Assembly (NCBI GenBank): GCA_963971535.1
Contig: OZ020589.1
Span: 51,783,952 to 51,847,951 of the forward strand
Length of the DNA: 64,000 nucleotides
Source of the DNA: Notolepis coatsorum
Taxonomy: Eukaryota > Chordata > Actinopteri > Aulopiformes > Paralepididae
Reading direction: 5' to 3'
Position 1 is the first letter of the stretch. Every line of letters begins with the position of its first letter. Position numbers and translations under genes: made by a program. Under the pieces are notes generated by a model that made no database searches, was not told the origin of the DNA, and worked only from the letters and a program-made list of their open reading frames with translations. Below are positions 1 to 46,890 of the stretch, one piece after another.

Positions 1-898
1 TTCAACAAGATCAAGAAAAACATTGTCCACATCTCCATCCCCAGTGACATCACATCTGACATAAATTATCATGTAAGCTTTTCCATGAACTGTGCTTTCA
101 TCCAGTGTTATACTGATACGTGAATCCTGCGATTTGACATGAGAAACAATTTTTTTTTTCATCTCTGTGGCAATGTGCTCTATGATCTGTGCACAAGAAT
201 GATCGGATTGGTGAGCTGGCCCGACTGTCGCACCGTTCAACTCATTAAGTGTCATAAGGGGGTTCAATTTGGTATAAGGCAACCTTTCTTTAGCGACAGT
301 ATATGCTGCCCTGAATGAACTGGCTGTCTCCTTGAGCAAATCAGATGTGATTTCGCTCACTTTTCTTGGAAGCACTTCCTTCTGGGTTTGACATTCTATA
401 GCTTGCTTATGAGCAACGCTATCACTGTGCAAGTATATTTTCTTCCTCAACTTCTTGCTCTGAGAGCTAGTCACAGTCCCATTCATCCACTGCTCTGCCA
501 AATGGGCTCCAAATGATTTATGTAACAATATCTTGGCGTTTTTACATGGAAGGCAGCCAATGCATCCCTCCTTGGCAAATAACCAGCTATATTTATTTTT
601 CCAAAAGATCCACTGACTCGGACCCCAGCATTGTGGTGGTTGAGTAGCAGCGCAGTCCAGGTCTAGTGGTGGAGACTCGGGTCTGGCAGTGGCAAACGGC
701 GCGGTAACAATAACAGGTGCACTGCGCACAGGAGCAGCAGAGCTAACACTAGGTACTAGCACTAGCAGTGTCAACTTCAGTGACAGTAGCGCTGCTAGCT
801 GCTGCACTAACAGCGTCAGACTTTGGCCTTTTTATAAAACCAAAGCTGTCCAGCTTTGTACAGCCTTGCGGCGGGTTGAGCCTTTTTTTTGGCGGCAT
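1..898 (-). pseudogene. hAT-derived, KIAA1586-like coding remnant (N-terminal part, frameshifted)
   Basis: Read on the minus strand, an ATG at 898-896 opens a frame beginning MPPKKRLNPPQGCTKLDSFG, followed by FIKRPKSD, a basic nuclear-localisation-like stretch. This frame stops near 750, and a shifted frame then stays open from about 750 to the window edge at base 1 (about 245 residues). That second frame carries WLFAKEGCIGCLPC, a cysteine cluster like the TTF-type zinc finger of hAT-derived proteins, and later SRISITLDESTVHGKAYMII, which resembles the start of a hAT transposase core (LDEST motif). I take it as a hAT-related or domesticated KIAA1586-like gene copy broken by one frameshift. 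The C-terminal catalytic and dimerisation part would lie left of the window. A live gene with a sequencing error near 750 is possible but less likely in this repeat-filled intron. The family name is recalled, not searched. Confidence 0.6.
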
Positions 899-1168
899 GT
901 GGCGTACTGTTTAGTGTTTATGTTTTCAGTTGCAGCCTGCAGGACACAGACTGACCGGCAGCCTTCTGTTTACATCAGCTGCTTCTTCTTCACTAGGTTG
1001 GAGTAGCGTTAAACTTATGGGGCGACGCTCATGGGCGACACATAGCGGCTTGGAGGTGAAATGCAGCCTATTCCACAACATTAATTACTCTGTTCTTTTA
1101 AAAACTGAAAAGAAAAATATGATCTATTAACAATTTATTTAGGTAGCATAAATAATACTAATTCGTAC

Positions 1169-4658: not shown

Positions 4659-4983
4659 GTAAGTCTCCTCTCAATACACATTTTGAGTGAACGTTCCATT
4701 TATGATCATTCTGGGGGAATTTTGGGGAGGTGTGTGTGTAATAATAAAAATAATAATAATACACTTTCTTTGTATAGCACCCAGTGGCGGCCGGTGGGTA
4801 CTTCGCCACTAGGGGCGCTATACCAAACATTTTGCAAACATGTACAGTACAGTACCACGCAACAGACTCATGGCAAGACGTGAGCGATTCGACTCACGCT
4901 CACGGCAATGAATCGGCTCTTATGAACGAGTCGCTCAGCTGTTACTACAACAACACACAACCAGTCAAATAAAGTATAGTCTA

Positions 4984-5420
4984 CCCAGGTGGCCAAAAAG
5001 TTCCGGCCCATTAATGGCCTGTATCCGGCAGGCCGGAAGAAATTAGTCGGCCCAAGTCCGGCTGCCAGAGTCGGCCAAGTAGGCGGCAATGACTGACTGG
5101 CCGATTCCGGCCCGAGTACACTGGGCCAGGTCCGGGGTTGCCGGAAGCGGTGAACGTCCGGATCGGCCCAGTAGGCGGCAATGACTGACTGGCCGATTCC
5201 GGCCCGAGTACACTGGGCCATGTCCGGGGTTGCCGGAAGCGGTGAACGTTGGCGGAATCGGCCCAGTAGGCGGCAATGACTGACTGGCCGATTCCGGCCC
5301 GAGTACACTGGGCCATGTCCGGGGTTGCCGGAAGCGGTGAACGTCCGGTTGCCTAAAGCAGCCCAGATGCGACCCACACATGCTGGGCCAGGTTTGGTTG
5401 CCCGAAGCCTAGCCGACACT
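4984..5420. repeat. GC-rich CCGG minisatellite, unit about 107-112 bp
   Basis: About three units containing GGCGGCAATGACTGACTGGC and GTTGCCGGAAGCGGTGAACG run from about 5040 to 5380. The left boundary, CTACCCAGGTGGCC at 4981, is the reverse complement of the right boundary GGCCACCTGGGTAG shared by the arrays at 17585-18440 and 44668-44808. These are three members of one repeat family, this one inverted. Long minus-strand frames are due to unit length, not to a gene. Confidence 0.8.
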
Positions 5421-5439
5421 GCCAATGCAATACTGGTAC

Positions 5440-5544
5440 TACACAGTAAATTACGCAGAGTAGATTTGACTCAAACTGAGTAAAGAAATTTTACTCAGTT
5501 TGAGTGAAATGTACTCAGTTTGAGTCAGCGGAATTTACTGTGTA
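5440..5544. mobile_element. Short palindromic MITE
   Basis: TACACAGTAAATTACGC at the left and GCGGAATTTACTGTGTA at the right pair in 16 of 17 positions. The 105-bp interior repeats ACTCAAACTGAG/CTCAGTTTGAGT in both orientations. Terminal TA suggests a Tc1/mariner-type target, but no independent duplication can be proven. Confidence 0.65.
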
Positions 5545-6366
5545 CCCATCTGCCAGAGCTACTCCACTATCTGCCTATGACCGTACATTACCGGAAATAC
5601 AGTAGGAAATGGTTGATTAGTAATACAATGCCACATATTTAAGGACCCTTCCCTTTACCAATTCAGTATTGGCATGTCCCTCATTGAAAAATTCAGAAGT
5701 TTACATGCTGTCTCCTACCTCACTGAAATATATTCTCAGTGTATGTACACAATATACATCATTCTGCAGTGAAGCTCAAATATCAAGTAAAGTAACAATT
5801 ACCCTCATACATGCTACTTTTTCCAGTTAAAAATGACAACTTGAATAGATATTTAAACATTTATTAACAAAATATCACATCCTCCTCTCTGAACCCAACG
5901 ATAAAGCCTCCAATGAAATGAACCCATTGTTCCCCTGCAACAGCTTCTCCCACAGGGGATCTTTGATTAAACACCTGCTAGCAGAAGAATATAGACAGTC
6001 AGAAAAAAAGTTCACTGTTTACTACTTAAGTACATTTAAAAGTAGAAACTTTGACTTTTACTCAAGTGTGTACTTTCACTTAAACTTTCATGTTAGTCTA
6101 GCTTAGCAACATTTTTTAGGAGAATTAATACAAAAACAAGTGATATGGCCATTCAGTTGTAAATGAAAGCCTGCATTTAGTAAGACGTTGTTTATAAATG
6201 TCTTTTGGTTTGGTTATGAATGAATGACAGCATCTCTATAGCACAGCTCTATTACTAGGACATAAAGTGCTTTGGAATGACTGTATACATCATTCACAAC
6301 GGGTGGCCCCAGCAGGAATCAAACTCCTAACCGTGACAGTGTTAGTGCCATGCTCGGACCCCAATG
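5545..6366. other. Non-coding interior of the giant element
   Basis: AT-rich sequence with no coding signal. The stretch 6300-6360 read in reverse has a weak tRNA-like B box (GTTTGATTCC) and may be a worn SINE. Nothing else is supportable. Confidence 0.45.
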
Positions 6367-6731
6367 TTATGCGGGGCTCTGCTCATAGGCGGGCGGCTCG
6401 TAGTCCTGGTTGTAGAAGCAACCGTCGCCCTCCATGGAGACCCCCCTCCTCCCGCGTCACCCCAGCGAGGTGGCGGGTGGCGACCCTGACGAGGTGAGCC
6501 ATGGTGGGGTGGCGGGGGGCCGGCAGGGGGGGGCTCCGGAGAAAAGCGCCAGGGGGCCGGGCCGAGAGGCGCCCCTGGGGCACCCCGGGAGGCGTGGGCA
6601 TAGCCTTACGGACCACGGGGGAATAGGTGACGTGGGGGCGTAGCGTGGCGGGGGTCTGGGGGAGCTGTCGCCGGCCCCGGCGAGGCGTGCTGGTCCCCGA
6701 CGTGGAGGGGACGGGACTTCCACTCACTGCC
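6367..6731 (-). pseudogene. cacna1a-like: Captured last-exon fragment of a CACNA1A-like calcium channel
   Basis: Minus-strand reading from 6731 gives [20 protein letters not shown], then [20 protein letters not shown] and RKA. This closely matches the C-terminal cytoplasmic tail of the P/Q-type channel alpha-1A subunit as I recall it ([25 protein letters not shown]). It is preceded by a pyrimidine-rich intron end and AG. The exon starts GGCAG followed by TGA, the same arrangement as human exon 47, where inclusion of GGCAG keeps the long tail in frame. The frame later shifts: [16 protein letters not shown] and a stop at 6367 lie in another frame. The fragment is markedly GC-rich against AT-rich neighbours. 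Because intron sequence comes with it, it was copied as genomic DNA and not as a retrocopy. It lies on the strand opposite the receptor gene and is not expected to make a channel. Confidence 0.8.
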
Positions 6732-6779
6732 CTACACGAAAAGTGAAAAAGGCAAATAAAAAGAACGAACCACAAATTC

Positions 6780-6850
6780 AACGACATAAGAGAAGAGGAT
6801 GAGATAGAGAGAGAGAAGAGAGAGAGAGAAGAGAGAGAAGGAAAGCAAGA
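6780..6850. repeat. GA-rich low-complexity tract
   Basis: An imperfect GAGA-rich tract, CT-rich on the minus strand, lying just upstream of the captured calcium-channel exon. It may be part of the captured intron. Confidence 0.6.
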
Positions 6851-6904
6851 TAGCAAAATACAACAAGAGCCACAGTATGGAAGCAAATGAGTGACATAAG
6901 TATT

Positions 6905-7330
6905 TGAATTTGATCAGACACCGAATTTATAGCATTGAAAATAATTACTTTGAAAACATGTATCTGAATTGAATTTATAGCATTGAAAATAATTACTTTG
7001 AAAACATGTATCTGAATTTTTTCAGACACCAAATTTATAGCATTGAAAATAATTACTTTGAAAACATGTATCTGATTTTTGAATTTTATCAGACACCGAA
7101 TTTATAGCATTGAAAATAATTACTTTGAAAACATGTATCTGAATTTTTTCAGACACCGAATTTATAGCATTGAAAATAATTACTTTGAAAACATGTATCT
7201 GAATTTTTTCAGACACCGAATTTATAGCATTGAAAATAATTACTTTGGAAAATGTATCTGAATTTTTTCAGACACCGAATTTATAGCATTGAAAATAATT
7301 ACTTTGAAAATCATGTATCTGAATTTTTTT
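6905..7330. repeat. 60-bp AT-rich minisatellite, about 7 units
   Basis: The unit contains TTTATAGCATTGAAAATAAT and ACTTTGAAAACATGTATCTG followed by AATTTTTTCAGACACCG. Units differ by small deletions (one is about 45 bp) and single-base changes. Short frames through it are repeat artefacts. Confidence 0.95.
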
Positions 7331-7564
7331 GCTCCGAATTTACCTATGTGAAATAAAAATTCAATGTAAAAAATTCGAATGTATAATAAAATTCAATGTA
7401 AAAAAAATCGATGCATAATTGCGGTGTATAAAATTCGATGTAAAAAACCATCATCCGGGCTACCCAGACAGGATAAGCAATCGAGCCTGGATGCAATCGA
7501 ATTGACTTCTGGCCTATCACTGCACGGCTTTGTCAGTCATGTGATCACACCAACCCGGGAGAAA

Positions 7565-8365
7565 GATGGCGGTATATATACATACGTTGGGGAGAGAATA
7601 TACATACGGTGGGGAGGAGACTGTACATTAGGAGGGGGTGGGTGGGAGAGAAATATACATACGGTGGGGAGAGAATATATACATACGGTGGGGAGGAGAC
7701 TGTACATTAGGAGGGGGTGGGAGAAAATATATACATACGGTGGGGAGGAGACTGTACATTAGGAGGGGGTGGGTGGGAGAGAAATATACATACGGTGGGG
7801 AGAGAATATATACATACGGTGGGGAGGAGACTGTACATTAGGAGGGGGTGGGAGAGAATATATACATACGGTGGGGAGGAGACTGTACATTACGAGGGGG
7901 TGGGAGAGAAATATACATATGGTGGGGAGAGAATATATACATATGGTGGGGAGAGAATATATACATACGGTGGGGAGGAGACTGTACATTAGGAGGGGGT
8001 GGGTGGGTGGGAGAGAAATATACATATGGTGGGGAGAGAATATATACATACGGTGGGGAGAAGACTGTACATTAGGAGGGGGTGGGAGAGAAATATACAT
8101 ATGGTGGGGAGAGAATATATACATATGGTGGGGAGAGAATATATACATACGGTGGGGAGGAGACTGTACATTAGGAGGGGGTGGGTGGGTGGGAGAGAAA
8201 TATACATATGGTGGGGAGAGAATATATACATACGGTGGGGAGGAGACTGTCTATTATATGTATATTTCTCTCCCACCCACCCCCTCCTAATGTACAGTAT
8301 CCTCCCCACTGTATGTATATATTCTCTCCCCATCATATGTATATATTCTCTCCCCACCGTTCTCT
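7565..8365. repeat. GGGGAG/TATACATAC minisatellite ending in an inverted segment
   Basis: Tandem units of GGGAGAGAATATATACATAC and GGTGGGGAGGAGACTGTACA run to about 8251. The array then turns: 8254-8365 reads the same motifs in reverse complement (TATATTCTCTCCCCA), making a large snap-back. Frames of 60-173 residues on both strands arise from the repeat. Confidence 0.95.
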
Positions 8366-8815
8366 TGGTGTAAAAAGTTTAAGACCAGGGTGAGGCCAGG
8401 CTATGGATGGCTTTGAAGGTGAGGAGTAGTGTTTTGAAGTTAATGCGTTCCTTGATCGGGAGCCAGTGGAGGGAGTGGAGGACAGGAGTGATGTGTTCGC
8501 GGGACCGGGTGTTAGTGAGGAGGCGGGCAACTGAGTTTTGGACCATCTGCAGTTTATGGAGGGAGCGGGAAGTGATGCCAGTGAGGAGGGAGTTACAGTA
8601 GTCCAGGAGGGAAAAGATGAAGGCGTGTATGAGGGATTCAGCAGCAGGGGGTAGAGGCAGTGACGGATTTTGGCAATGTTGCGGAGGTGAAAATATGAAG
8701 TTTTGACAATGGAGCGGACATGGGGTCAAATGAGAGGGTGGGGTCGAGGATGACACAGAGGTTGCGGACTAGGGGGGAGGGGTGATGGTGGAGTCATTGA
8801 TGGTGAGCGTGATGT
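8366..8815 (-). mobile_element. L2/CR1-type LINE fragment (end of reverse transcriptase ORF)
   Basis: Minus-strand reading gives LIHAFIFSLLDYCNSLLTGI, LQMVQNSVARLLTNTRSREH, then ITPVLHSLHWLPIKERINFK. This is the recurrent C-terminal part of L2-like reverse transcriptase polyproteins in fish. No catalytic RT core is present, and it is truncated at both ends inside the giant element. Confidence 0.8.
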
Positions 8816-8828
8816 AATACAATAATTT

Positions 8829-10493
8829 ATACTGTAGCATTACAAACCATTTGACAGCCAGGTCCTGCACCTCCGTTCTTGTCCTCTAGGAGCCATCGCA
8901 GCATGGCCAAGACCTTCCTCATCCAGCATACTGTCCGCGTGTAACTTATTGCCAGCGGAAGAGTGCAAGAATGCTTCCGCATTCGTCACCGCACGCCAGT
9001 ACGGTAATGCGCCTTTCCTTTCGCCCCGCTCAGACAAATGCATGTAGTACATTGCAACACAACGCAGCATTTCCACGGCTGTCTTTAACTAGCAGGACGC
9101 TAGTGGGCTAGTCGCTAAAATATATAATTGTACCAACACAGATATTAGGCAGTACACACATTGTCCTGCAATACATGTACAGTGAATGCACAGCTACATT
9201 CGCCATATATTTCTATCGCTGCTGCGGTCTACAGTGAAATGCAATATTATTATTATTATTGTAAAGATTATCATTACAATCGCAGCCTGGAGGCAATGTT
9301 ACAAGTGTACGAGGGTTGTGTGCAAAGAGCACAGCCTCTCAATTTGCACAACGTGCACAAAATAATAATTGTAATGATCTTTACAATAATAATAATATTG
9401 CATTTCACTGTAGACCGCAGCAGCGATAGAAATATATGGCGAATGTAGCTGTGCATTCACTGTACATGTATTGCAGGACAATGTGTGTACTGCCTAATAT
9501 CTGTGTTGGTACAATTATATATAAAACGATATATATATTTGAGCGACTAGCCCACTAGCGAGGCAACCTCCTGCACCATCGCAGCAGCGCCGAGCGTGGT
9601 GATACAAGCGGGCTGCTCTGAGGAAAGGAGCCCCTTCACGCTAGTGGGCTAGTCGCTCAAATATATATCGTTTTATATATAATTGTACCAACACAGATAT
9701 TAGGCAGTACACACATTGTCCTGCAATACATGTACAGTGAATGCACAGCTACATTCGCCATATATTTCTATCGCTGCTGCGGTCTACAGTGAAATGCAAT
9801 TTTATTATTATTGTAATGATCATTACAATTATTATTTTGTGCACGTTGTGCAAATTGAGAGGCTGTGCTCTTTGCACACAACCCTCGTACACTTGTAACA
9901 TTGCCTCTCCAGGCTGCGATTGTAATGATAATCTTTACAATAATAATAATAATATTGCATTTCACTGTAGACCGCAGCAGCGATAGAAATATATGGCGAA
10001 TGTAGCTGTGCATTCACTGTATGTATTGCAGGACAATGTGTGTACTGCCTAATATCTGTGTTGGTACAATTATATATAAAACGATATATATTTTAGCGAC
10101 TAGCCCACTAGCGTCCTGCTAGTTAAAGACAGCCGAGGTTGAGTAGTTTCTTCTGATATCACTTTCAAACTCCAAGTGATTTGTTGCAATGTACGCGGAA
10201 ATGCTGCGTTGTGTTGCAATGTACTACATGCATTTGTCTGAGCGGGGCGAAAGGAAAGGCGCATTACCGTACTGGTGTGCGGTGACGAATGCGGAAGCAT
10301 TCTTGCACTCTTCCGCTGGCAATAAGCTACACGCATACTGTCCTTCTGAAGCTCTGAAGTCATTAGTGGCCATGAACCTAAAGAGAGAGAGCGAGAATAC
10401 GTTAGTAGATAGTCTAAGGCCAGTGATTCTCAATATTATTTTGCATATCTAGGACCTCTAATTTAGTCCATGTCATGCACATCTACATACAAT
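8829..10493. repeat. First copy of a duplicated unit, carrying a fold-back insertion
   Basis: The sequence at 8829-8936 plus 10335-10493 matches 10494-10757 end to end, so the unit is tandemly duplicated. The first copy alone contains the 1398-bp fold-back element 8937-10334. Confidence 0.85.
8937..10334. mobile_element. Fold-back (MULE-like) element with long inverted repeats, 9-bp duplication ATACTGTCC
   Basis: Left end GCGTGTAACTTATTGCCAGC and right end (reverse complement GCGTGTAGCTTATTGCCAGC) begin inverted repeats of about 160 bp. ATACTGTCC flanks both sides (8928-8936 and 10335-10343). The neighbouring tandem copy keeps the uninterrupted site at 10595-10603, proving insertion. The middle contains two further hairpins, about 9105-9560 and 9640-10110, each bounded by GCTAGTGGGCTAGTCGCT inverted ends, so four arms alternate in orientation. 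No transposase frame is present. A 9-bp duplication with long inverted repeats suggests the Mutator-like group, but other superfamilies are possible. Confidence 0.82.
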
Positions 10494-10757
10494 ATACTGT
10501 AGCATTACAAACCATTTGACAGCCAGGTCCAGCACCTCTCCGTTCTTGTCTTCTAGGAGCCATCGCAGCATGGCCAAGACCTTCCTCATCCAGCATACTG
10601 TCCTTCTGAAGGTCTGAAGTCATTAGTGGCCATGAACCTAGAGAGAGAGCGAGAATACGTTAGTAGATAGTCTAAGGCCAGTGATTCTCAATATTATTTT
10701 GCATATCTAGGACCTCTAATTTAGTCTATGTCATGCACATCTACATACAATATACAG
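10494..10757. repeat. Second copy of the duplicated unit (empty site)
   Basis: It matches the flanks of the fold-back element and contains an intact ATACTGTCCTTCTGAAGG at 10595, where the first copy carries the insertion. Confidence 0.85.
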
Positions 10758-10776
10758 TAGCATCCATCAACACAGG

Positions 10777-11085
10777 ATGACCCTTTCCAGCTGTTGAAAT
10801 GAAAGTCCCAGATTGAAAAGTATATATATACACAGTCACACACACAATAAAACATTGTATACATCACTTACAAGCATGACCACTTGAAGATCTTGAAGAC
10901 TTGGTAGATCTTGACCGTCTTGGGAGAGAGAGAGAGAAGGCATTACAGGATGACTCTTTGAAAATGATGTCCCAGATTAAAAAGTATATATTATATATAC
11001 AGTCACACACACAATAAAAAAAATGTATACATCACTTACGACCACTTGAAGTAGTTGTTCTTGAGCCGTCTTCTGCGTTCATCTC
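10777..11085. repeat. Two units of a dispersed CACACACAATAAAA-containing repeat
   Basis: The units at about 10777-10900 and 10950-11055 share CCCAGATT(G/A)AAAAGTATATA, CAGTCACACACACAATAAAA and TATACATCACTTA...GACCACTTGAAG. A third copy lies at 44310-44420 in the same orientation, outside the giant element. Confidence 0.75.
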
Positions 11086-11264
11086 ATTGATGAGATACAG
11101 CACTGTAACAGTATATTTGCAACAATGAAATTATATATTTTATTACAACTCTATCAGCTGAGTAACAATATTCATCAAAGTGTTGCGTGTTACAGTGTAG
11201 GTTAGTTTATTAGTGCATGACAGTAGGGTTAGCATACTTTTCACACTATAAGCCCCACCTGAAT

Positions 11265-11670
11265 GATAGCCAGTTAGCAGCTCCGGGTACAGTATGTACC
11301 CCAACGTTAGCTCTCATAACGTTAGCAGCTCCTGGTACAGTATAGGTATCAAAAGTTATCTCTCATAGTCATAACGTTAGCAGCTCCGGGTACAGTATGT
11401 ACCCCAACGTTAGCTCTCATAACGTTAGCCAGTTAGCAGCTCCTGGTACAGTAGGTACCAAAAGTTAGCTCTCATAGTCATAACGTTAGCAGCTCCGGGT
11501 ACAGTATGTACCCCAACGTTAGCTCTCATAACGTTAGCCAGTTAGCAGCTCCTGGTACAGTAGGAACCAAAAGTTAGCTGTCATAGTCATAACGTTAGCA
11601 GCTCCGGGTACAGTATACAACGTTAGCTAGTCATACCGTTAGCCAGTTAGCAGCTCCGGTATTTTACAGA
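11265..11670. repeat. Minisatellite GTTAGCAGCTCC, compound unit about 120 bp
   Basis: Alternating subunits GCAGCTCCGGGTACAGTATG and GCAGCTCCTGGTACAGTAGG are joined by AACGTTAGCTCTCATA. About four higher-order units. Confidence 0.9.
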
Positions 11671-12016
11671 TCCCGCCAGTTTAATAATATCGAGCTAATA
11701 ACGTTACAGTAGTCACTGAAAACACAGACTAAACAGCACTCATTTATATCAGCGGCACGCATTACTTATAAATAATAAAAGTGTTGCACAATTACCTGAG
11801 GAGAAGATGCAATTCCGTTGCTCACGACATGGTGCAGGCTCTGTCTGTAGCGCGCTTCAATTCAAATTTCAAACCGGGATCCCCCACAATGCAACGCATC
11901 AGTGTTGCCAGATTTGAGAGTCAGCCTTAATCTGACAAACCTTTGATAATAATGGGCGGTTCGGATATTGTTAATCCGATCTGGCAACCATGCTATCCTT
12001 GTTTCTCCGCACAGAC

Positions 12017-12800
12017 TGACCACGGTTTTGATTGATTGATTGAAAACTTTGTTAACAGATTGCAGAATGGGTACAATACAGTACAGCTCAATACATACAA
12101 TTGTTAAGGGCATGCAGACCAGAGAAAGACGTTCGTCTTGTTTACATCAGGGACCCCCATTTTCAATTCATCATAACATGACATGTGACATACAGATAGA
12201 CACTTCTATACATTTATGACATACCAGATTTGCAAATACAGTAGGCCTACTGTTTGTGATACAAAAAGAGTCTAGAAAAGAGAGTATATATTTGACGTAG
12301 AACCGTACATTATAGGTGGGGGGGGGGGTAGGAGGGGTGGGGGGGCACACTGTACAATGCACAAGCACAACTGTACATTGGAATATTGACAAAACCATGT
12401 TTGGTACTTTACTGTACATTGGAGGGGGTTGGGTTAGGACATTTACAGGGGCCAGTTTCGAATTGCAGTCTCCCGTAGGTGTTCTTTGAGAGTGTTTTGA
12501 AAGTGGGTAGTGATTCACATTCCTTTACATCTTTGGGTAGGGCGTTCCACATTGATGTGGCATAATTGCGAAACGTGTTCCTGTTTGAGCCGAATCTGGG
12601 TTTAACATGATTTGTGGAGCTCCCTCTATGGTGTTGTGGTCGTGGTATTCACTGACCTTTGGAAAGTATTTTGATATGTACACATATATGGGTACCTTGA
12701 TCGTGTATAGTGTATCTTGTAGACAGGCCCATTGCAAGTTGCTGCGCGCTGTCGTCTACTCTAAGCCGTTGTCACGTGGGCAGGGGCGAGGTGGGTTCTA
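12017..12800 (-). mobile_element. LINE 3' fragment with RT C-terminus and ATTG tail
   Basis: The minus strand reads RNTFRNYATSMWNALPKDVK then ECESLPTF. After a one-base shift it continues LKEHLRETAIRNWPL and a stop near 12447, the typical end of a non-LTR polyprotein. The 3' UTR runs to a (TTGA)n/(TCAA)n tail at 12017. Four other copies of the same 3' end (17425, 18660, 34205, 36845) show it is a dispersed family. Clade uncertain within the L2/CR1/Jockey group. Confidence 0.75.
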
Positions 12801-12854
12801 GGAGTAAGGTCAAGCATGTAGTCTGACCAGTTTGTTTTGAGATGAATTGTGTAG

Positions 12855-13227
12855 CAGGGTCAAGTCAAGTCAAGTCAAGTCAAGAGTTTTAATTGTCACG
12901 GCATACAAGTATACAATGAAATGCGGGTGGTCTTGCCCGCAACGATATGCAATACGTGGTACAACATATAATAGAATCCAATAAAAAAAAAACATTGTGC
13001 AATAAACAGGTAACAGGTAACATATTTGTGACATCTCGGTATCTGTACATATTATTTACAGGGCATATAGGACACGGTCAAAGAACACCAGATCCAGGCG
13101 TACAACTAGAACCACCAGAACAGTGAATACGAGCAAAGTAACACGACTAACTGGTAACGACAGATACAGATTACAAAACATACAATTAAAAACTAAAAAT
13201 CTCTAGAAAATCTAGTCAATTTACAAA
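12855..13227. repeat. (AAGTC)n-headed dispersed repeat
   Basis: CAAGT pentamers from 12860 precede GAGTTTTAATTGTCACGGCA and TACAATGAAATGC, the usual 3' end of a fish LINE read in reverse. A related start lies at 21069. The sequence to 13227 is AT-rich and otherwise unremarkable. Confidence 0.6.
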
Positions 13228-13682
13228 CCAATGAGCTTCTAGATACAGTAGAAAGGATATGCAGCCAGTATGAGCTTCTAGATACAGTAGAACAGATATG
13301 CAGCCAGTATGAGCTTCTAGATACAGTAGAACAGATATGCAGCCAGTATGAGCTTCTAGATACAGTAGAACAGATATGCAGCCAGTATGATCTTCTAGAG
13401 ACAGTAGAACAGATATGCAGCCAGTATGAGCTTCTAGATACAGTAGAACAGATATGCAGCCAGTATGAGCTTCTAGATAAGACAGTAGAAGAGATATGCA
13501 GCCAGTATGAGCTTCTAGATAAGACAGTAGAAGAGATATGCAGCCAGTATGAGCTTCTAGATAAGACAGTAGAACAGATATGCAGCCAGTATGAGCTTCT
13601 AGACAGACAGTAGAAGAGATATGCAGCCAGTATGAGCTTCTAGATACAGTAGAACAGATATGCAGCCAGTATGAGCTTCTAA
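13228..13682. repeat. Minisatellite, 39-43 bp unit, left part
   Basis: The unit is GAGCTTCTAGATACAGTAGA followed by ACAGATATGCAGCCAGTAT. A second unit type has GATAAGACAGTAGAAGAGAT. Eleven or so units precede the LINE at 13683, and the same array resumes at 14702. Confidence 0.95.
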
Positions 13683-14701
13683 GATATTCCTTTATTGATC
13701 CCCTTGGGGAAATTCAGGCATCATAGCAGCATGGGGGGGAGGGGGGGATGGGTACAGGTAGTAAAACAACACAGTATACAGGTAGTAAAAGACAACACAG
13801 GCAGTGTAAACAATTTGATCAATATGGTCAATATAATTTACTATCTGACTAGCTGAGGAATATTCACATTATTCACAGTGTCACATGAGGTGCAGTATGC
13901 AAGAGGTAGTGTTATAATTTACTATCTACTGAGTGTACATTAATCAAAGTACCAGGGTAGTCTACTTTGTCCCCCTTGGGTTCCTATAAGTCCCAGGTCA
14001 ATGTCTGGTAGCAGTCGCTGTCGCTGCCCCCTGTTGTGGGGCCTGGAGGCTGCTAGTCGCTGCCCACTGTTGTGGAGCCTGATGGCCGCTGGTATGAAGG
14101 ACTGTCCGAGGCGGTTAGTTGAGTGTCGGGGGGGGATGAGTCTGTGGCTGAACGAGCTTCTCATCTTGACTAGCTCGTCGTAGAGGGGGTGGTAGGGGTT
14201 CTCCATGATGGCATCCAGCTTCCTTATCATCCCCCTCTCTCCCATCACCTCAAGTCTAGGTAGCTCGACTCCCACCACGGAGCTAGCCTTCCTCACCAGC
14301 TTGTTGAGCTTGTTGGTGTCCCTTGAGTTGATGTAGCCTCCCCAGCATGCCACAGCATAGAAGAGGATGCTGGCCACAACAGACTGGTAAAAAGACTGCA
14401 GCAGTTTGTTGCACACATTGAAGGACCTGAGTCTCCTCAGGAAGAACAGCCTGCTCTGTCCCTTCCTGTAGAGGGCCTCTGTGTTGTCCGACCAGTCCAG
14501 TTTATTGTTCAGGTGTACCCCAAGGAACTTGTATGAGTCCACCATCTCCACATCCACCCCTCGGATGGAGATGGGAATCGGGGGGGGCCTCTTCTTGCCC
14601 CTCCGGAAGTCCACCACCAGCTCCTTGGTCTTACTGGTGTTGAGTTGGAGGTGGTTGCTGTCGCTCCACCCCACGAAGCTCTCCACCAGGGCTCTGTACT
14701 C
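13683..14701 (-). mobile_element. L2/Rex1-type LINE 3' fragment inserted in the minisatellite
   Basis: A minus-strand frame of about 248 residues (14686-13940) begins inside the RT domain: LNTSKTKELVVDFRRGKKRP, then YKFLGVHLNNKLDW, KGQSRLFFLRRLRSFNVC and FYQSVVASILFYAV, ending after LGQSFIPAAIRLHN. The catalytic FADD motif is missing, so the copy is 5'-truncated. The 3' end at 13683 is TTCCTTTATTGATCCC in the plus reading. Identical minisatellite units on both sides show that it inserted into the array. Confidence 0.85.
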
Positions 14702-15270
14702 CTCTAGATACAGTAGAACAGATATGCAGCCAGTATGAGCTTCTAGATAAGACAGTAGAAGAGATATGCAGCCAGTATGAGCTTCTAGATAAGACAGTAG
14801 AAGAGATATGCAGCCAGTATGAGCTTCTAGATAAGACAGTAGAACAGATATGCAGCCAATATGAGCTTCTAGACAGACAGTAGAAGAGATATGCAGCCAG
14901 TATGAGCTTCTAGATACAGTAGAACAGATATTCAGCCAGTATGAGCTTCTAGATACAGTAGAACAGATATGCAGCCAGTATGAGCTTCTAGATACAGTAG
15001 AACAGATATGCAGCCAGTATGATCTTCTAGAGACAGTAGAACAGATATGCAGCCAGTATGAGCTTCTAGATACAGTAGAACAGATATGCAGCCAGTATGA
15101 GCTTCTAGATAAGACAGTAGAAGAGATATGCAGCCAGTATGAGCTTCTAGATAAGACAGTAGAAGAGATATGCAGCCAGTATGAGCTTCTAGATAAGACA
15201 GTAGAAGAGATATGCAGCCAGTATGAGCTTCTAGATAGACAGTAGAACAGATATGCAGCCAGTATGAGCT
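14702..15270. repeat. Minisatellite, 39-43 bp unit, right part
   Basis: Continuation of the 13228 array after the LINE. The order of unit variants (plain, plain, GATCTTCTAGAGACAG, then three GATAAGACAG units) recurs on both sides, suggesting higher-order duplication. Confidence 0.95.
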
Positions 15271-15445
15271 TGTTGCATACTCATGTTAAACAGTTGGCAT
15301 TAGTGCAGAATTGAACTAAAACTGTCTCATAGGAACGGATTCTGGAATGGCATTTTGAATAAATGACTAAATGACATAAATGAAAGCTCTCATCGACTCC
15401 GACAGATTGCTAGTCATTCATAATGGCATCGAAAGACTGTCCAAA

Positions 15446-17030
15446 TGACCTGTGTTGTGTTAGCTTGTGTTAGCTTGGGGAGCTGCGGTCTGTGTTGTGT
15501 TAGCTTGGGGAGCTGCAGTCTGTGTTGTGTTAGCTTGTGTTAGCTTGGGGAGCTGCGGTCCATGTTGTGTTAGCTTGTGTTAGCTTGGGGAGCTGCAGTC
15601 TGTGTTGTGTTAGCTTGTGTTAGCTTGGGGAGCTGCAGTCTGTGTTGTGTTAGCTTGTGTTAGCTTGGGGAGCTGCGGTCCATGTTGTGTTAGCTTGTGT
15701 TAGCTTGGGGAGCTGCGGTCCATGTTGTGTTAGCTTGTGTTAGCTTGGGGAGCTGCGGTCCATGTTGTGTTAGCTTGTGTTAGCTTGGGGAGCTGCAGTC
15801 TGTGTTGTGTTAGCTTGTGTTAGCTTGGGGAGCTGCGGTCCATGTTGTGTTAGCTTGTGTTAGCTTGGGGAGCTGCAGTCTGTGTTGTGTTAGCTTGTGT
15901 TAGCTTGGGGAGCTGCGGTCCATGTTGTGTTAGCTTGTGTTAGCTTGGGGAGCTGCAGTCTGTGTTGTGTTAGCTTGTGTTAGCTTGGGGAGCTGCGGTC
16001 CATGTTGTGTTAGCTTGTGTTAGCTTGGGGAGCTGCAGTCTGTGTTGTGTTAGCTTGTGTTAGCTTGGGGAGCTGCGGTCCATGTTGTGTTAGCTTGTGT
16101 TAGCTTGGGGAGCTGTAGTCTGTGTTGGGTTAGCTTGTGTTAGCTTGGGGAGCTGCGGTCCATGTTGTGTTAGCTTGTGTTAGCTTGGGGAGCTGCGGTC
16201 CATGTTGTGTTAGCTTGTGTTAGCTTGGGGAGCTGCGGTCCATGTTGTGTTAGCTTGTGTTAGCTTGGGGAGCTGCGGTCCATGTTGTGTTAGCTTGTGT
16301 TAGCTTGGGGAGCTGCAGTCTGTGTTGTGTTAGCTTGTGTTAGCTTGGGGAGCTGCAGTCTGTGTTGTGTTAGCTTGTGTTAGCTTGGGGAGCTGCGGTC
16401 CATGTTGTGTTAGCTTGTGTTAGCTTGGGGAGCTGCAGTCTGTGTTGTGTTAGATTGTGTTAGCTTGGGGAGCTGCGGTCCATGTTGTGTTAGCTTGTGT
16501 TAGCTTGGGGAGCTGCGGTCCATGTTGTGTTAGCTTGTGTTAGCTTGGGGAGCTGCAGTCTGTGTTGTGTTAGCTTGTGTTAGCTTGGGGAGCTGCGGTC
16601 CATGTTGTGTTAGCTTGTGTTAGCTTGGGGAGCTGCAGTCTGTGTTGTGTTAGCTTGTGTTAGCTTGGGGAGCTGCGGTCCATGTTGTGTTAGCTTGTGT
16701 TAGCTTGGGGAGCTGCAGTCTGTGTTGTGTTAGCTTGTGTTAGCTTGGGGAGCGGCGGTCCATGTTGTGTTAGCTTGTGTTAGCTTGGGGAGCTGCGGTC
16801 CATGTTGTGTTAGCTTGGGGAGCTGCGGTCCATGTTGTGTTAGCTTGTGTTAGCTTGGGGAGCTGCAGTCTGTGTTGTGTTAGCTTGTGTTAGCTTGGGG
16901 AGCTGCGGTCCATGTTGTGTTAGCTTGGGGAGCTGCAGTCTGTGTTGTGTTAGATTGGGGAGCTGCAGTCTGTGTTGTGTTAGCTTGGGGAGCTGCGGTC
17001 CATGTTGTGTTAGCTTGGGGAGCTGCTAAC
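15446..17030. repeat. 40-bp minisatellite, about 39 units
   Basis: The unit is TGTTGTGTTAGCTTGTGTTA plus GCTTGGGGAGCTGCRGTCYA. Two unit types, GCGGTCCA and GCAGTCTG, alternate in long runs. Thirty-bp units lacking one TTAGCTTGTG occur at both ends, chiefly the right end after about 16800. Near-perfect homogeneity over 1.5 kb implies recent expansion. Confidence 0.97.
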
Positions 17031-17035
17031 TATAG

Positions 17036-17330
17036 AGGCCATAACCACAGTATTACATATACTCTTGTTAGCTTTATGAGGCTACATCAACACGCTCCTA
17101 TGAGTGCAGCATGTTAGCTTTATGAGGCTAAATCAACATCCTATGAGTGCAGCTATAATGTTAGCTTTATGAGGCTACATCAACATGCAGGCTCCTATGA
17201 GTGCAGCTAATGTTATGAGGCTCTGCCCCCCCTCCACTCCTCTAACACCCACCTCGCTCTGCCCCCCCCCCCTCCACTCCTCTAACATTTTATTTATTAA
17301 TTTTATTATTATTATTTATTTGTTGCCATT
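17036..17330. repeat. Degenerate about 55-bp repeat and C/T-rich segment
   Basis: Three spaced copies of TTAGCTTTATGAGGCTA are each followed by CCTATGAGTGCAGC. After this come two near-identical CTCTGCCCCCC...CCACTCCTCTAACA segments around 17220-17287. Confidence 0.8.
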
Positions 17331-17424
17331 AAAATAATAGGCAAGCATAGGGCTAAAACATTTTCATAAACAATAATATAATTTTTTGTTATTTGGTTAT
17401 AATAAGGGCTTTTCTATGCATTTG

Positions 17425-17490
17425 TCTGATTGATTGATTGATTGAAAGCTTTATTGACAGACTGCAGAGTGGGTACAGTACAGCTGTATT
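17425..17490 (-). repeat. LINE 3' tail fragment (ATTG family)
   Basis: TGATTGATTGATTGAAAGCT and GACAGACTGCAGAGTGGGTA match the 3' end at 12017. Confidence 0.7.
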
Positions 17491-17584
17491 CACTTGTTGC
17501 GGTGGTCTCAACGGAACAATTTTGATTGACAGTCGATTCTGCCAATCACACCGCTGTTGTGTGTGGGGGCGGCGTCGCTTGACT

Positions 17585-18440
17585 GAAACTTCGGCTCTGC
17601 CCCGGCAACCATTGCCGAGCCAGAGCCGGTTTATCTTTGGCGAGCCCGAGTCGGCTCTGCCCCGGCAACCATTGCCGTGCCAGATCCGGTTTATCTTTGG
17701 CGAGCCCGAGTCGGCTCTGGCACGGCAAGCCGAGCCGGGCCAGAGCCGGTTTATCTTTGGCGAGCCCGAGTCGGCTCTGCCCCGGCAACCATTGCCGTGC
17801 CAGAGCCGGTTAATCTTTGGCGAGCCCGAGTCGGCTCTGCCCCGGCAACCATTGCCGTGCCAGAGCCGGTTTATCTTTGGCGAGCCCGAGTCGGCTCCGC
17901 CCCGGCAACCATTGCCGGGCCAGAGCCGGTTTATCTTTGGCGAGCCCGAGTCGGCTCTGCCCCGGCAACCAGAGCCGGGCCAGAGCCGGTTTATCTTTGG
18001 CGAGCCCGAGTCGGCTCTGCCCCGGCAACCATTGCCGTGCCAGAGCCGGTTTATCTTTGGCGAGCCCGAGTCGGCTCTGGCACGGCAAGCCGAGCCGGGC
18101 CAGAGCCGGTTAATCTTTGGCGAGCCCGAGTCAGCTCTGCCCCGGCAACCATTGCCGTGCCAGAGCCGGTTTATCTTTGGCGAGCCCGAGTCGGCTCCGC
18201 CCCGGCAACCATTGCCGGGCCAGAGCCGGTTTATCTTTGGCGAGCCCGAGTCGGCTCTGCCCCGGCAACCAGAGCCGGGCCAGAGCCGGTTTATCTTTGG
18301 AGAGCGCGAGTCGGCTCTGCCCCGGCAACCATTACCGCGCCAGATCCGGCTCATCGTTGGCGTGCCGTGCCGGACATATGCCGAGTGTGCCGACCGGTAG
18401 CCGGAATTGGGCCGAGTATGCTGGCCACCTGGGTAGACTC
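17585..18440. repeat. 60-bp CCGGC minisatellite open in several frames
   Basis: About 13 units of exactly 60 bp contain CGGCTCTGCCCCGGCAACCA, TTGCC and CCAGAGCCGGTTTATCTTTG. Because 60 is a multiple of three and the unit has few stops, frames of about 310-320 residues open on both strands (17438-18400 plus, 17677-18615 plus, 18354-17389 minus). None looks like a protein other than a periodic one. Inside each unit CCGGCTCTGGC and GCCAGAGCCGG can pair. Unit variants recur as blocks, the sign of multi-unit duplication. The right edge, GGCCACCTGGGTAGA, is shared with 44668-44808. Confidence 0.95.
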
Positions 18441-18659
18441 TAATTCACAACTTGAAACACAATATATAAATAGAAAAGTTAGAAACAAAACTTGCACGTC
18501 TCCAAACACAGGCAGATCTCTCCCTCTCTCCTTCTCTCTCTCACACACAGCGCGACGTGGAATCGATTCATTACACAATCAGACCTATTATATACCAAGA
18601 ATAACTTCAGTATGAGTACAGGGCTGTACACATATTTTGCATATTGTTAAACGAGCCAA

Positions 18660-18833
18660 GGCTAGCTATTAAACTATCGATATGAATCGACAATCTGGGA
18701 CCCTGATGTAAACAAGACAAACGTCTTTCTCTGGTCTGCATCCCCTTAACAATTGTGTGTATTGAGCCGTACTGTATTGTACCCATTCTGCAATCTGTTA
18801 ATAAAGTTCTCATTCATTCATTCATTCAAACAT
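18660..18833 (+). repeat. LINE 3' tail fragment with ATTC tail
   Basis: GATGTAAACAAGACAAACGT, GTCTGCATCCCCTTAACAAT and CCCATTCTGCAATCTGTTAA, then a (CATT)n tail. Same family as 12017 but in the opposite orientation. Confidence 0.75.
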
Positions 18834-19095
18834 AGACGATATTGAACAAGCCATAATCCACGTATTTTCAATCCGAGAGAGCTGCAGTAGTTAAATCAAT
18901 GAGCCATCGACATAGTCAGTGTGGTAACGTTATTATTGCATCCAAGATTGATACACGGCTGGCTAGGCAGTTGGTAGTCATAGTCTTGTGTTATAAAATA
19001 AATAAACAATCAGCAATGTCTCGCTTCATGAATGGCCAGCAGTAGCCTAACAGTACTGCTCCTAAAAAAAACTATTTACAAACGTTAACGTTAAC

Positions 19096-19099
<4 letters not shown>
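18834..19099. other. Unassigned sequence in the giant element
   Basis: No repeat boundary or coding signal recognised. Confidence 0.4.

Positions 19100-19168
<69 letters not shown>
19100..19168. repeat. (AG)n microsatellite
   Basis: About 34 uninterrupted AG units. Confidence 0.97.
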
Positions 19169-19171
<3 letters not shown>

Positions 19172-19990
19172 CACTGTTTAGTTGAAACGTCCAGGGCAGG
19201 AGAGCTTGATAAACGTGTATAATCCACTGATGATGTATTCCAGACCACTGTCCACTGTAGTCTGTCTCCAGACTGCATCCGCCATATAGCTTGTTAGCCC
19301 AGTGTTAGCTCGTTAGCACAACACAAGTACATTCCTTTGTCCATTTCCGCTCGAACAGACTGCAAACTACCTGGCGTTCTATCGCCATGCTCTAAGACAA
19401 ACTCTAACCTTAACCAACTTTGAAAGAGTGCCTAAGCTTAACAGTCTAAAGAACTTGCAGTCACGGCACGCTCGTCTAAGACAAACAGCTGCCTGCATCA
19501 TTCTCACAACAACACAACTATCTCCACCGACCAACCTAGGAATAACCTAGAATTGGAACATTAGAAATTGGATTCGGCCAATCAGAGATCGTCTCTGTGA
19601 AATTCTGCTACGGAAAAAAATACTGGCGTCGGCCAATCAGAGAGCGTCTCCGCGAAATGCGGCTACAGATATTCTTGACGCTACTGGCTAGACCGCTTCA
19701 AATCGCGCCCGGATTCCAACATAATAGTCATATTTCAACGCACAACGCGTTATGCACTGATTGGCTGTGACGGATACAGCGATCAAACTGTGACGCGCAC
19801 TCAGAGCGCTATCGCGTATAGCCCGGGCCGAGAAATACGAAAAAATAAAAAAAACTTGATGTCACTTCCTGCTCTGGAAAACGAGTGTTTTTTAATTGCG
19901 ATAATAACGTTATATTGTGCATTGGAAATACAAACATACTTAAAATGAGTAAATATTAAAAAACGTATTTTTCTTGTTCTCTCATATAAC
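19169..19990. other. Right interior of the giant element with CCAAT-containing direct repeats
   Basis: TCGGCCAATCAGAGA occurs twice about 60 bp apart (near 19576 and 19630) with flanking similarity. Part of 19380-19440 (TATCGCC...CTCTAA...AACTTTGAAAGAGTGCCTAA) resembles the short interspersed repeat at 20630 and 22270. Inverted CCAAT boxes could drive transcription, but no coding frame follows. Confidence 0.5.
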
Positions 19991-20048
19991 CAGGGTAGTT
20001 CCTGAGGGGGGGCGGCGCCCGAGCGCCCCTAGTGGCGAGCCGCCACTG

Positions 20049-20150
20049 ATAGCACCTTTCATACAAAAATGGCAGCTCACAGTGCTTTATAACAGAAAAA
20101 GACAGGCATAAAATGAGCACATAAAGTGCAGACCTATAAAATCACAGTTT
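20049..20150 (-). repeat. Right half of the LINE 3' end split by the giant element
   Basis: TTTCATACAAAAATGGCAGCTCACAGTGC continues from AATACACTTTCTTTGTATAG at 4758-4777 (the LINE reads on the minus strand). Together they match the intact 3' end at 46612-46670. Confidence 0.8.
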
Positions 20151-23175: not shown

Positions 23176-23234
23176 TTACCAGCTTTGTCCTCAATGACTG
23201 ACACTAACAGAACAGACAACATTGAGTCTAAAAG

Positions 23235-26200
23235 ATGGCGCCGCTATGCCCGGTCGCCTGTCTGTTCGCTCCGTCGAGATTGTGCTTACTTTTGTTAATA
23301 TTTATAGTTTTAAGAGTTTTGTCTGTACCAACAGTAGGTGCATTTAATGTGTATGACCGTCAGTCACTTATAGACATCGGATTACGGGAAACTTACCGAT
23401 TGGATTACTCCCTGAATCAGCTTTCCGAACCGCAGCAATGGCCTTTGGAAATTCTCAAAACAATGGGACCAGATCCTGATCCCAGGAACAAAGGAATCAC
23501 CAGGCGGCGAGGGAAGAGAGCTGGGATCCGTAACAGGCTGAGATCCAGAAGACACCGAACACCACTACCCAGTATATTGCTAGCCAATGTACAATCAATT
23601 GACAATAAACTGGATGACATCCGAGCAAGGATTCAATACCAAAGAGACGTTAGAGATTGTAACGTTCTCTGCTTCACCGAGACGTGGCTGACGCCGGACG
23701 TCCCAGACCACGCCATACAACCGGCCGAACACTTCTTCATCCACCGCAAGGACAGATCAGCATTGTCCGGCAAACAACGTGGAGGAGGTATTGCCTTCAT
23801 GTTTAACAACAATTGGAGCGATCCAGCTAACGTGAAGGAATTATCGAACCACTGTTGCCCAGACCTGGAATATATAACCATCAAGTGTCGTCCTTTCTTC
23901 CTCCCGAGGGAGTTAACGGCGATCATCCTTGTAGGAGTGTATATTCCACCGCAAGCCAGCAATAGTGCCGCGCTCTCCAGGCTTCACGACGAGGTAAACA
24001 AACTCCAGGCAGCGAACGTTAATGCCGCCATCATAGTTGTGGGTGATTTCAATAGCGCCAATCTGAGAAAGGTATTACCTGACTTCTATCAGCATGTGAC
24101 TTGTAACACCAGAGGCGGTAACATCCTAGATCACTGTTACACGCAATTCAAAGGTGGATACAAGGCTCATTCTGCTAGTGGCTTTGGTAAATCAGATCAC
24201 GCGTCCATTTTCCTTTCACCAAAGTACAAACAAAGAATCAAAAGCACTCCCGTAGTCTTGCGAGAGGTGCAGAAATGGGATTTGACGTCAGAGGAGACGC
24301 TACAGGCTGCGTTTGACTGCACAGACTGGAGCGTGTTCCGCGACACAGATAACATTCATGTCTACACGGAGACAGTGCTGGACTATGTTCGTACTATGGT
24401 GGAAGAAACAATCCCCACTACCAAAATGAGAGTTTACCCAAATCAAAAACCCTGGGTAGACAAATCCGTCCGTGAAGCTCTGAGAGCGCGCACCAAAGCA
24501 TACAACGACGGCCTAGTGGCAGGCAACATGAATGACCACAAGGTGGCGCGATACAACGTAAGGAGGACAGTGACAGAGGCCAAGCGACGCTACAAGGATA
24601 AAATTGAACTCCAGTTTGAACAGGCTGACTCTAGAGCTATGTGGCAGGGGCTCAAAACGATGACAGACTACAAAGGCGCCTCCCTCAAACTGAACAGTGA
24701 CATCTCCTTAGCAAATGACCTCAATACCTTCTATGCGAGGTTTGATGCTGGTAATAACAACACCAGCCCACAAGCCACGGCAATGGGGGGGGGGGGGGGG
24801 GGTCGGCTGCTGATGGAGACGCAGTGTTCAGGGTAACAGAGCATGAGGTGAGGCGGACCTTTAAAAAAGTGAATATCAGGAAGGCAGCAGGTCCGGACGG
24901 CATCCCCGGCCGCGTCCTAAAAGTCTGTGCCAACCAACTGGCCCCAGTATTCACTGACATATTTAACCTGTCCTTAGAACAGGCTGTCATCCCCACCTGC
25001 CTGAAGAAGTCCACTATTATCCCTGTACCCAAAAAATCCAAGCCTGCTTGCCTCAACGACTACCGCCCTGTAGCTCTCACCTCCATAGCCATGAAGTGCT
25101 TTGAGAAGCTAGTAAAGGGCTACATCTGCTCCTCCCTCCCCATCAACATGGACCGCCTGCAATTTGAATACCGCCCCAACAGGTCCACGGAGGACGCCAT
25201 AGCCCATGTGCTGCACACAGCAGCATCACACCTGGACAAGAGGCAGGGGAACTATGTGAGAATGCTATTCATCGACTACAGCTCGGCATTCAATACCATA
25301 GTCCCCTCCATACTCATAGCCAAGCTCAGGGACCTGGGCTTGAACTATGACCTCTGCCAGTGGGTCTTGGACTTCCTGACTGGCAGACCCCAGGTGGTGA
25401 GAGCAGGCAACTGCACCTCCTCATCCATCACCCTCAACATAGGGGCCCCCCAGGGTTGTGTTCTGAGTCCCCTCCTCTACTCCCTGTACACACACGACTG
25501 TGTGGCTCAGCGGAGTAGCAATACAATCATCAAATTTGCTGACGACACAGTGGTGGTGGGCCTGATCTCTGCCAACGACGAGAGGGCCTACCTGGAAGAG
25601 GTCAAGGTCCTGGCGGGATGGTGCCAGGAAAACAGCCTCTCCCTGAACGTCAGCAAAACAAAGGAGATGATTGTGGACTTCAGGAGGTCGGGGGTCAAGG
25701 ACTACAGCCCCCTCAGCATCGACGGGGCACCGGTTGAGAGAGTCAACAGCTTTAAGTACCTCGGAGCCTACATATCCGAGGACTTGACATGGACCACACA
25801 CATTGACAGTGTTGTGAAGAAGGCACGACAACGCCTCTACTTCCTCAGGCGCCTAAGGAAGTTCCAAGTCAGTCAGAAGATCCTTAAGAACTTCTACTCA
25901 TGTACAATAGAGAGCATCTTGACTGGCAACATCATCTCCTGGTTTGGGAATAGCACTGCACAAGACCGAAGCAGACTACAAAGAGTGACACGTTCAGCCG
26001 AACGCACAATTTGAACTGCTGCGGTCAGGCAAGCGATACCGGAGTCTCAAGGCGAGCACAGAAAGACTCAGAAGAAGCTTCTATCCCCAGGCCATCAGGC
26101 TGCTAAACGAACAATGAACACTACACAACAACAACCACCAAACGCACATAGCACACACATCCACACGCACACACTCACTTTAAACAAACACACTGTAGCA

Positions 26201-39778: not shown

Positions 39779-39978
39779 NNNNNNNNNNNNNNNNNNNNNN
39801 NNNNNNNNNNNNNNNNNNNNNNNNNNNNNNNNNNNNNNNNNNNNNNNNNNNNNNNNNNNNNNNNNNNNNNNNNNNNNNNNNNNNNNNNNNNNNNNNNNNN
39901 NNNNNNNNNNNNNNNNNNNNNNNNNNNNNNNNNNNNNNNNNNNNNNNNNNNNNNNNNNNNNNNNNNNNNNNNNNNNNN
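39779..39978. other. Assembly gap (200 N)
   Basis: Exactly 200 N, probably a gap of arbitrary size. Frames crossing it, such as one from 39469 to 40824, join unrelated sequence. Confidence 0.99.

Positions 39979-46599: not shown

Positions 46600-46890
<291 letters not shown>

Follow-up and report, generated by a model that had tools for sequence, protein, structure and literature searches.

The locus

In the window, that is the whole 64-kb stretch of DNA analysed here, the minus strand holds a copy of the start of the last exon of a cacna1a gene together with the end of the intron before it. This fragment lies within an element with terminal inverted repeats (TIRs), called the carrier below, and the carrier is in turn inserted in a larger hAT-like element. 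The features are given with the evidence for each, where TSD stands for target site duplication.

4774 to 4781, no strand: 8-bp TSD ATAGCACC of the outer element, left (repeat pair)
4782 to 20048, no strand: outer hAT-like element, target of the carrier insertion, with outer parts 4782 to 4983 and 18434 to 20048 (TSD, inverted ends, empty site)
4982 to 4983, no strand: TSD (TA) of the carrier, left (ends compared among copies)
4984 to 18433, no strand: carrier, a 13.45-kb TIR element, apparently non-autonomous, with ends CCCAGGTGGCC...GGCCACCTGGG (common termini and TSDs)
6371 to 6875, minus: captured cacna1a fragment, short form, internally deleted, made of the intron 46 end and the 5' part of exon 47 (alignment to parent L050, 635 to 1253)
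6371 to 6731, minus: exon 47 part, starting GGCAG/TGA, frame broken by an 8-nt and other deletions (parent alignment)
6732 to 6875, minus: intron 46 end, CT-rich tract and acceptor (parent alignment)
6900 to 7342, no strand: 60-bp tandem repeats of the carrier, adjoining the captured intron end (also in other copies)
17591 to 18366, no strand: 60-bp minisatellite adjoining the carrier right end (right-end search)
18434 to 18435, no strand: TSD (TA) of the carrier, right (ends compared among copies)
20049 to 20056, no strand: 8-bp TSD ATAGCACC of the outer element, right (repeat pair)
46567 to 46687, minus: empty paralogous site lacking the outer element (92% over 121 bp spanning the join)

The fragment comprises 144 bp from the intron and 361 bp from the exon, its limits being set by the parent alignment. 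A preliminary description, made from the letters alone, had put a captured CACNA1A-like last exon at 6367 to 6735, and captured sequence does lie there but extends from 6371 to 6875. On the minus strand a Cav-like tail peptide of 43 residues is encoded at 6730 to 6602. A 61-residue window peptide, run with phmmer against PDB chains, has human Cav2.1 as its top match (8x90_A, residues 2308 to 2355, E=3e-16), with Cav2.2 (5.6e-7) and Cav2.3 (2.5e-5) weaker, and this match and the parent found on contig C32 bear out the proposed cacna1a source.

Human CACNA1A has an alternative GGCAG acceptor, with a GGCAG/TAG isoform in which an in-frame stop follows at once. In the window the acceptor reads TTTTTCACTTTTCGTGTAG/GGCAG/TGA upstream of the tail peptide, with tgtag before the exon, and was judged good; the exon starts at 6731, GGCAG occupies 6731 to 6727 and TGA 6726 to 6724. 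The GGCAG and TGA named in the preliminary description are thus present, but the TGA was not inherited: the parent reads GGCAG/TAG, and the stop of the window copy was created in the copied fragment by an 8-nt deletion just after GGCAGT. Past the acceptor the three reading frames of the short form run for 41, 114 and 1 codons, and it cannot encode a channel tail.

With an acceptor and a conserved tail in place, the sequence might be taken for a cacna1a gene's own last exon at its native site, the intron before it having been invaded by transposons. Exons 37 to 46 of Cav2.1 are however missing from the 64-kb window (tblastn with the last 660 residues of the human C-tail, a query checked against 8x90_A, which finds this last exon alone), the frame is broken and about 400 copies exist, and these three observations refute the resident-gene reading. 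The last exons of two cacna1a-like genes are moreover located elsewhere, the parent's being open to DDDWC, so that a resident gene has a negligible probability here.

The parent gene and its paralogue

The genome containing the window (3.42 Gb, 4,787 contigs) was searched in full. Of the several Cav genes returned by a protein search, two are cacna1a-like and lie on contig C13 near 94.54–94.59 Mb (paralogue A) and on contig C32 near 83.62–83.65 Mb (paralogue B). A query made of the distal coding end, absent from the copies, returned two matches among 21 candidates (E about 0.005 each), and these are the last exons of the two genes. The segment that is parental to the window fragment lies on C32 at 83,648,247–83,648,865 (locus L050, 635 to 1253). 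Against it the window aligns as an intron block of 46 bp at 97.8%, a block of 484 columns, 14 of them mismatched and 42 gap positions, and a third block of 31 bp at 100%, and the last 45 nt of intron ahead of the exon are identical; the C13 gene is only 72% alike. An intron-level match to a cacna1a paralogue, the test set beforehand in the preliminary description, was therefore found, in that the intron end matches paralogue B.

Exon 46 of both cacna1a-like genes (L036, L037, L049, L050) ends HRQ/GTGGG in phase 0, and both have the letters GGCAG/TAG at the start of exon 47. The parent reads on from there as GSSSVSGSP, in the same frame as human Cav2.1 (8x90_A), and is open through ETDDDWC to its stop; when GGCAG is skipped an immediate TAG results. 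Judging by the parent, the alternative acceptor with its immediate in-frame stop is hence retained in this genome. All 13 aligned copies agree against the parent at four sites (L050 942, 948, 981 and 1035), and since at 942 and 948 they carry the base of paralogue A, the parent was probably mutated there after the capture. On a separate contig, equal-scoring Cav-type exon matches in opposite orientation lie 15 kb apart (L034/L035, C21:140523411 on the minus and 140538037 on the plus strand), and reflect either a Cav2 gene end that was duplicated in inverse orientation or an artefact of assembly.

The high identity to the parent would also suit a retrocopy made from processed RNA, or a segmental duplication that simply took in the end of the gene. 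Processed pseudogenes have their introns removed, whereas here the 144-bp end of intron 46 is retained and exon 46 is not joined to exon 47, which excludes an RNA route and upholds the preliminary view of a capture at the DNA level with flanking intron. Against duplication stands the recurrence of the same fragment limits within a terminus-bounded repeat, on many contigs and with different TSDs. Either form of this explanation appears very improbable.

The outer element and the carrier

The outer element is 15.27 kb long and has inverted ends (CAGTGGCGGC..., CA..TG) and an 8-bp TSD, as hAT elements have. The match of an 8-bp TSD with a 12-bp TIR is weak alone, such a match having turned up in 3 of 20 Markov shuffles too, but that the insertion is real follows from its longer inverted ends and from the joined flanks, which add up to a single copy of the repeat present whole at 46567–46687. 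No transposase domain was seen in six frames of 4782–20048 (Pfam, 12 half-length frames), and the element is on that account called hAT-like only. The single Pfam family above cut-off in this interval was ALKBH8_N, taken as a LINE tail, and a PCF11-repeat match just under cut-off is located in a minisatellite. A search around the exon for other nested elements, with TSDs of 2–7, 9 or 10 bp, produced three unconvincing matches (one of 3 bp, two of 5 bp).

Elsewhere in the window other features were noted by eye. What looks like a hAT/ZNF862-like transposase, its N-terminal half only, runs off the left edge (1–1010, minus strand), and long open frames of apparent LINE type occupy 23232–26014 and 61248–62753; two 300-bp stretches of these frames are 98% alike (family D14). 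A run of 200 N lies at 39779–39978.

The preliminary description had the exon inside a hAT-like element, and it does lie within the 15.27-kb insertion, but the element that carries it is the nested one at 4984–18433. The left terminus CCCAGGTGGCC is common to 11 of 11 carriers (the window copy and ten others), the flanks of which differ, and two more copies have the flank of one of the 11. The right end gave 40 scored places out of 610 candidates, window included, all 98–100% alike. Where both ends were read the flanking 2 bp agree in 8 of 8 carriers (TA, TA, TA, AA, AT, TT, AC and AC), and as the two AC copies have common flanks these are seven independent insertions; of the eleven carriers with an inspected left end, six had the right end read as well. 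In one copy (C6:198.8 Mb) the left end is absent at the predicted place, in the C1 carrier it lies about 3.4 kb farther out than expected, and the copy on C45 has an additional 7.2 kb with a LINE reverse transcriptase.

These termini bear on the idea that the hAT-like element 4782–20048 itself captured the exon. The exon does sit inside the 8-bp TSD and inverted ends of that element, but all eleven carriers end at the position equivalent to 4984 with differing flanks, carrier TSDs are of 2 bp in 8 of 8, and contig C43 holds the outer element without the carrier. That empty copy comprises most of the element, aligns across the join at 95.6%, and misses 7 bp besides the TSD at the carrier insertion point. 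Capture by the hAT-like element is refuted by the common carrier termini, and is given only a slight residual probability. The order of insertion in the window is thus repeat, then hAT-like element, then carrier with exon.

To which family the carrier belongs is a matter of its ends and TSDs. Tc1/mariner elements duplicate TA, found at only three of the seven independent carrier insertions, and do not fit. Helitrons, which have no TIR, no TSD and TC..CTRR ends, do not agree with the inverted CCCAGGTGGCC ends and the TSDs. CMC (CACTA/Mirage/Chapaev) elements end in CACTR, while the carrier ends are CCCAGG. Published TSDs are 5–8 bp for hAT, AT (target A/AT/T) for ISL2EU (PHIS) and 2–4 bp for CMC (PMC4482050); the 2-bp TSD of the carrier (8 of 8 copies, 7 independent) falls outside the hAT range and inside the CMC range, and the series TA three times, AA, AT, TT and AC speaks against ISL2EU. 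The carrier is therefore non-hAT, its mixed 2-bp TSDs misfitting hAT, ISL2EU and Tc1/mariner and its ends being unlike those of CACTA. The available part of a review of giant transposons (PMC6431247) contains no element matching it, and no relative was found in IMG/VR. With no recognisable transposase of its own the carrier presumably depends for its movement on an enzyme supplied from outside, and its transposition is read from its ends and TSDs. A PDB search with six carrier frames for other pieces of host genes returned the Cav2 piece only.

Within the carrier two exon-like stretches were seen by eye at 10,850–11,130, and a LINE-type fragment lies at 13231–15271 in a 39/42-bp minisatellite. 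Three carriers (C6:144.90 Mb, C6:148.14 Mb and C8:35.27 Mb; L016, L059 and L057) have a common left flank ..GAAAAGGGCACTAC, which in L057 and L059 also includes the hAT-like CAGGGACGTGCACAG; here it seems that a carrier sits inside another hAT-like repeat and the composite was then copied.

Copies of the fragment

When up to 3 mismatches are allowed, a 37-nt stretch of the exon matches 405 places in the genome, one of them the parent. The exact pattern with the 8-nt deletion (short form) occurs 194 times and the exact undeleted exon start 81 times, the latter including the parent and so 80 non-parental copies; each of the three patterns, reversed as a control, gave 0. With the window fragment as query 40 of 40 scored places, window included, were 98–100% identical (444 first-look candidates). 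The captured fragment is thus a family of about 400 genomic copies, in which the short form now outnumbers the long. The preliminary description had suggested looking for the fragment in further copies of its element, and they exist, in the carrier family rather than in the hAT-like element.

When the parent was the query, 40 scored places among 1,298 candidates comprised the parent and 39 copies at 85–96%, some covering the parent from 620 past 1253 and others 635–1253. The long form covers parent 620–1397 (about 778 bp). Gene sequence from downstream, used as query, is matched over its positions 1–144 by 11 copies, and four more places reach that end piecemeal; all 15 places (at least 81% alike) reaching the 3' end of the long form stop at parent 1397, and the parent alone continues. 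Three weak matches at 69–79% (C9:175.5, C27:1.6 and C29:91.1 Mb) cross this boundary and are provisionally taken as proline-/histidine-rich low complexity.

Eleven of 11 aligned short forms have in common deletions of 8, 11, 18, 30 and 37 nt and two of 1 nt, and homopolymer assembly errors were for this reason dropped as a cause of the broken frame; one short form (C45, L008) was left out of the alignment, its anchor letters not matching exactly. Two long forms only were read as sequence, L051 (parent 620–1349) and L052 (parent 620–1397). Neither has the 8-, 11-, 18- and 30-nt deletions or the two 1-nt ones, and they have some deletions of their own; in the CT tract a 54-nt gap of L052 overlaps the 37-nt gap of the short forms. 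They share the intron-side carrier flank, and L052 is bordered on each side by carrier sequence known from the window, in the expected order (8392–8364, 29 bp; 6071–5957, 76% alike), and so seems to be an older representative of the carrier family. In one long-form copy (L051 800–1001 and C21:74321063–74321118) an insertion after parent 1349 interrupts the fragment, and beyond it the parent sequence recurs from 1341, a TSD-like repeat of about 8–9 bp.

Of 40 scored places from 2,551 candidates, 13 share the 3' junction together with 270 bp of carrier. In the remaining 27 the match sets in at the junction, and as 25 of them show an inverted copy of query positions 51–91 beside it, something else follows there; these 27 could be another repeat rather than carriers without a capture. 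The intron-side junction is crossed by 35 of 40 scored places (1,482 candidates), a crossing tested by 10 low-complexity nt only, and of the remaining five two reach query position 201 and three stop at 196, the junction itself. For fifteen of the 20 best intron-side places an exact undeleted exon start lies no more than about 400 bp away. Among 11 short-form carriers mean divergence is 0.57% (0.13–1.56%) over about 1,545 bp, a figure biased low because only top-scoring copies were taken. The simplest account is a single capture of parent 620–1397, then trimming, then spread of the short form, and the order can be read because parent, long-form and trimmed copies survive in one genome.

Origin and mechanism

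Overall it is probable, at roughly nine chances in ten, that a TIR transposon took a piece of the C32 cacna1a paralogue by DNA copying and then transposed to hundreds of copies. Counted as established in this account are the parent, the copying at the DNA level, the shared junctions and deletions, the TIRs and TSDs, and the copy number. An apparently non-autonomous TIR element would have captured about 778 bp across the boundary between intron 46 and exon 47, and then have been transposed, presumably by a transposase supplied elsewhere, to give hundreds of copies. In one lineage the fragment appears to have been trimmed to parent 635–1253 and to have lost further short stretches, including the 8 nt after GGCAGT; a recent burst of this short form may have followed, and the window copy would have jumped into the hAT-like element.

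The capture itself probably came about by template switching, either while a break in the element was being repaired, a gap filling as for Pack-TIRs, or when a replication fork changed template, perhaps at a hairpin. One such hairpin (-18.2 kcal/mol, z -2.59, with 3 of 200 shuffles as good) has the 3' junction of the long form at its foot, and the copying could have begun there from a break or a stalled fork. For animal Pack-TIRs gap filling is proposed for single-copy cases, and replication-fork switching with transposition for multicopy ones (PMC8277862, as far as its available text goes). The present case fits the multicopy group, its many copies lying mostly far from the parent and having distinct TSDs.

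Possible consequences

The effect of the fragment, if any, would likely be exerted through the intact splice acceptor or through RNA homologous to cacna1a. A non-hAT giant TIR transposon might so have made the alternative acceptor of the last exon of cacna1a, a P/Q-type calcium channel gene, a dispersed splice acceptor at about 400 sites, with intronic carriers acting as exon traps or carrier RNA feeding back on the parent, a speculative and rather improbable proposal. That the acceptor or exon is active today, intronic carriers trapping upstream exons or carrier RNA yielding small RNAs that match cacna1a, is likewise doubtful. The window copy with its parental 45 nt before the exon, and the 194 short-form and 80 non-parental undeleted exon starts that match exactly, are consistent with such activity, but recent copies would look intact even without function. 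Apart from function, a vertebrate TIR element of the cut-and-paste type can capture a host exon with its acceptor and spread both to hundreds of sites.

Comparison with known systems

In the literature searched no report was found of a cacna1a fragment inside a transposon. The nearest relatives are the animal Pack-TIRs, of which the available part of a survey of 100 animal genomes, 81 of them vertebrate, counts 370, with 208 hAT (PMC8277862). Given 208 hAT cases, the opinion in the preliminary description that gene capture by hAT elements is rarely noted in vertebrates has to be revised. Multicopy captures are the scarce ones, four (1.4%) in the same survey, one example having three insertions (PMC8277862). 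As in Pack-TIRs, host DNA lies between the two TIRs of one element, the parental copy is outside the element and is not intronless, and capture was at the DNA level; in contrast to them the carrier is a non-hAT element of 13.45 kb with about 400 copies. It exceeds the 100–5,000 bp to which the published screen limited internal sequence (PMC8277862), a rule of method and not of mechanism.

In bats the Helitron HelibatN3 holds a NUBPL fragment, and promoters of 15 genes reached 4,690 copies, splicing from the captured NUBPL fragment having been shown (PMC4778049, available part). HelibatN3 and the carrier are alike in that a captured gene fragment with a splice signal was amplified in a vertebrate, but the former is a rolling-circle Helitron with a promoter and splice donor, whereas here a carrier with TIRs and TSDs holds a last exon and acceptor. 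The platyfish texim case similarly has a host-type gene mobilised by a fish DNA transposon, there as a whole expressed gene in a Helitron and here as an exon fragment in a TIR element (PMC4021074, available part). Pack-TYPE elements are likewise non-autonomous DNA transposons by which coding DNA is taken up and dispersed, and on the available account (PMC8903248) they are elements of plants, whereas the carrier described here belongs to a vertebrate.
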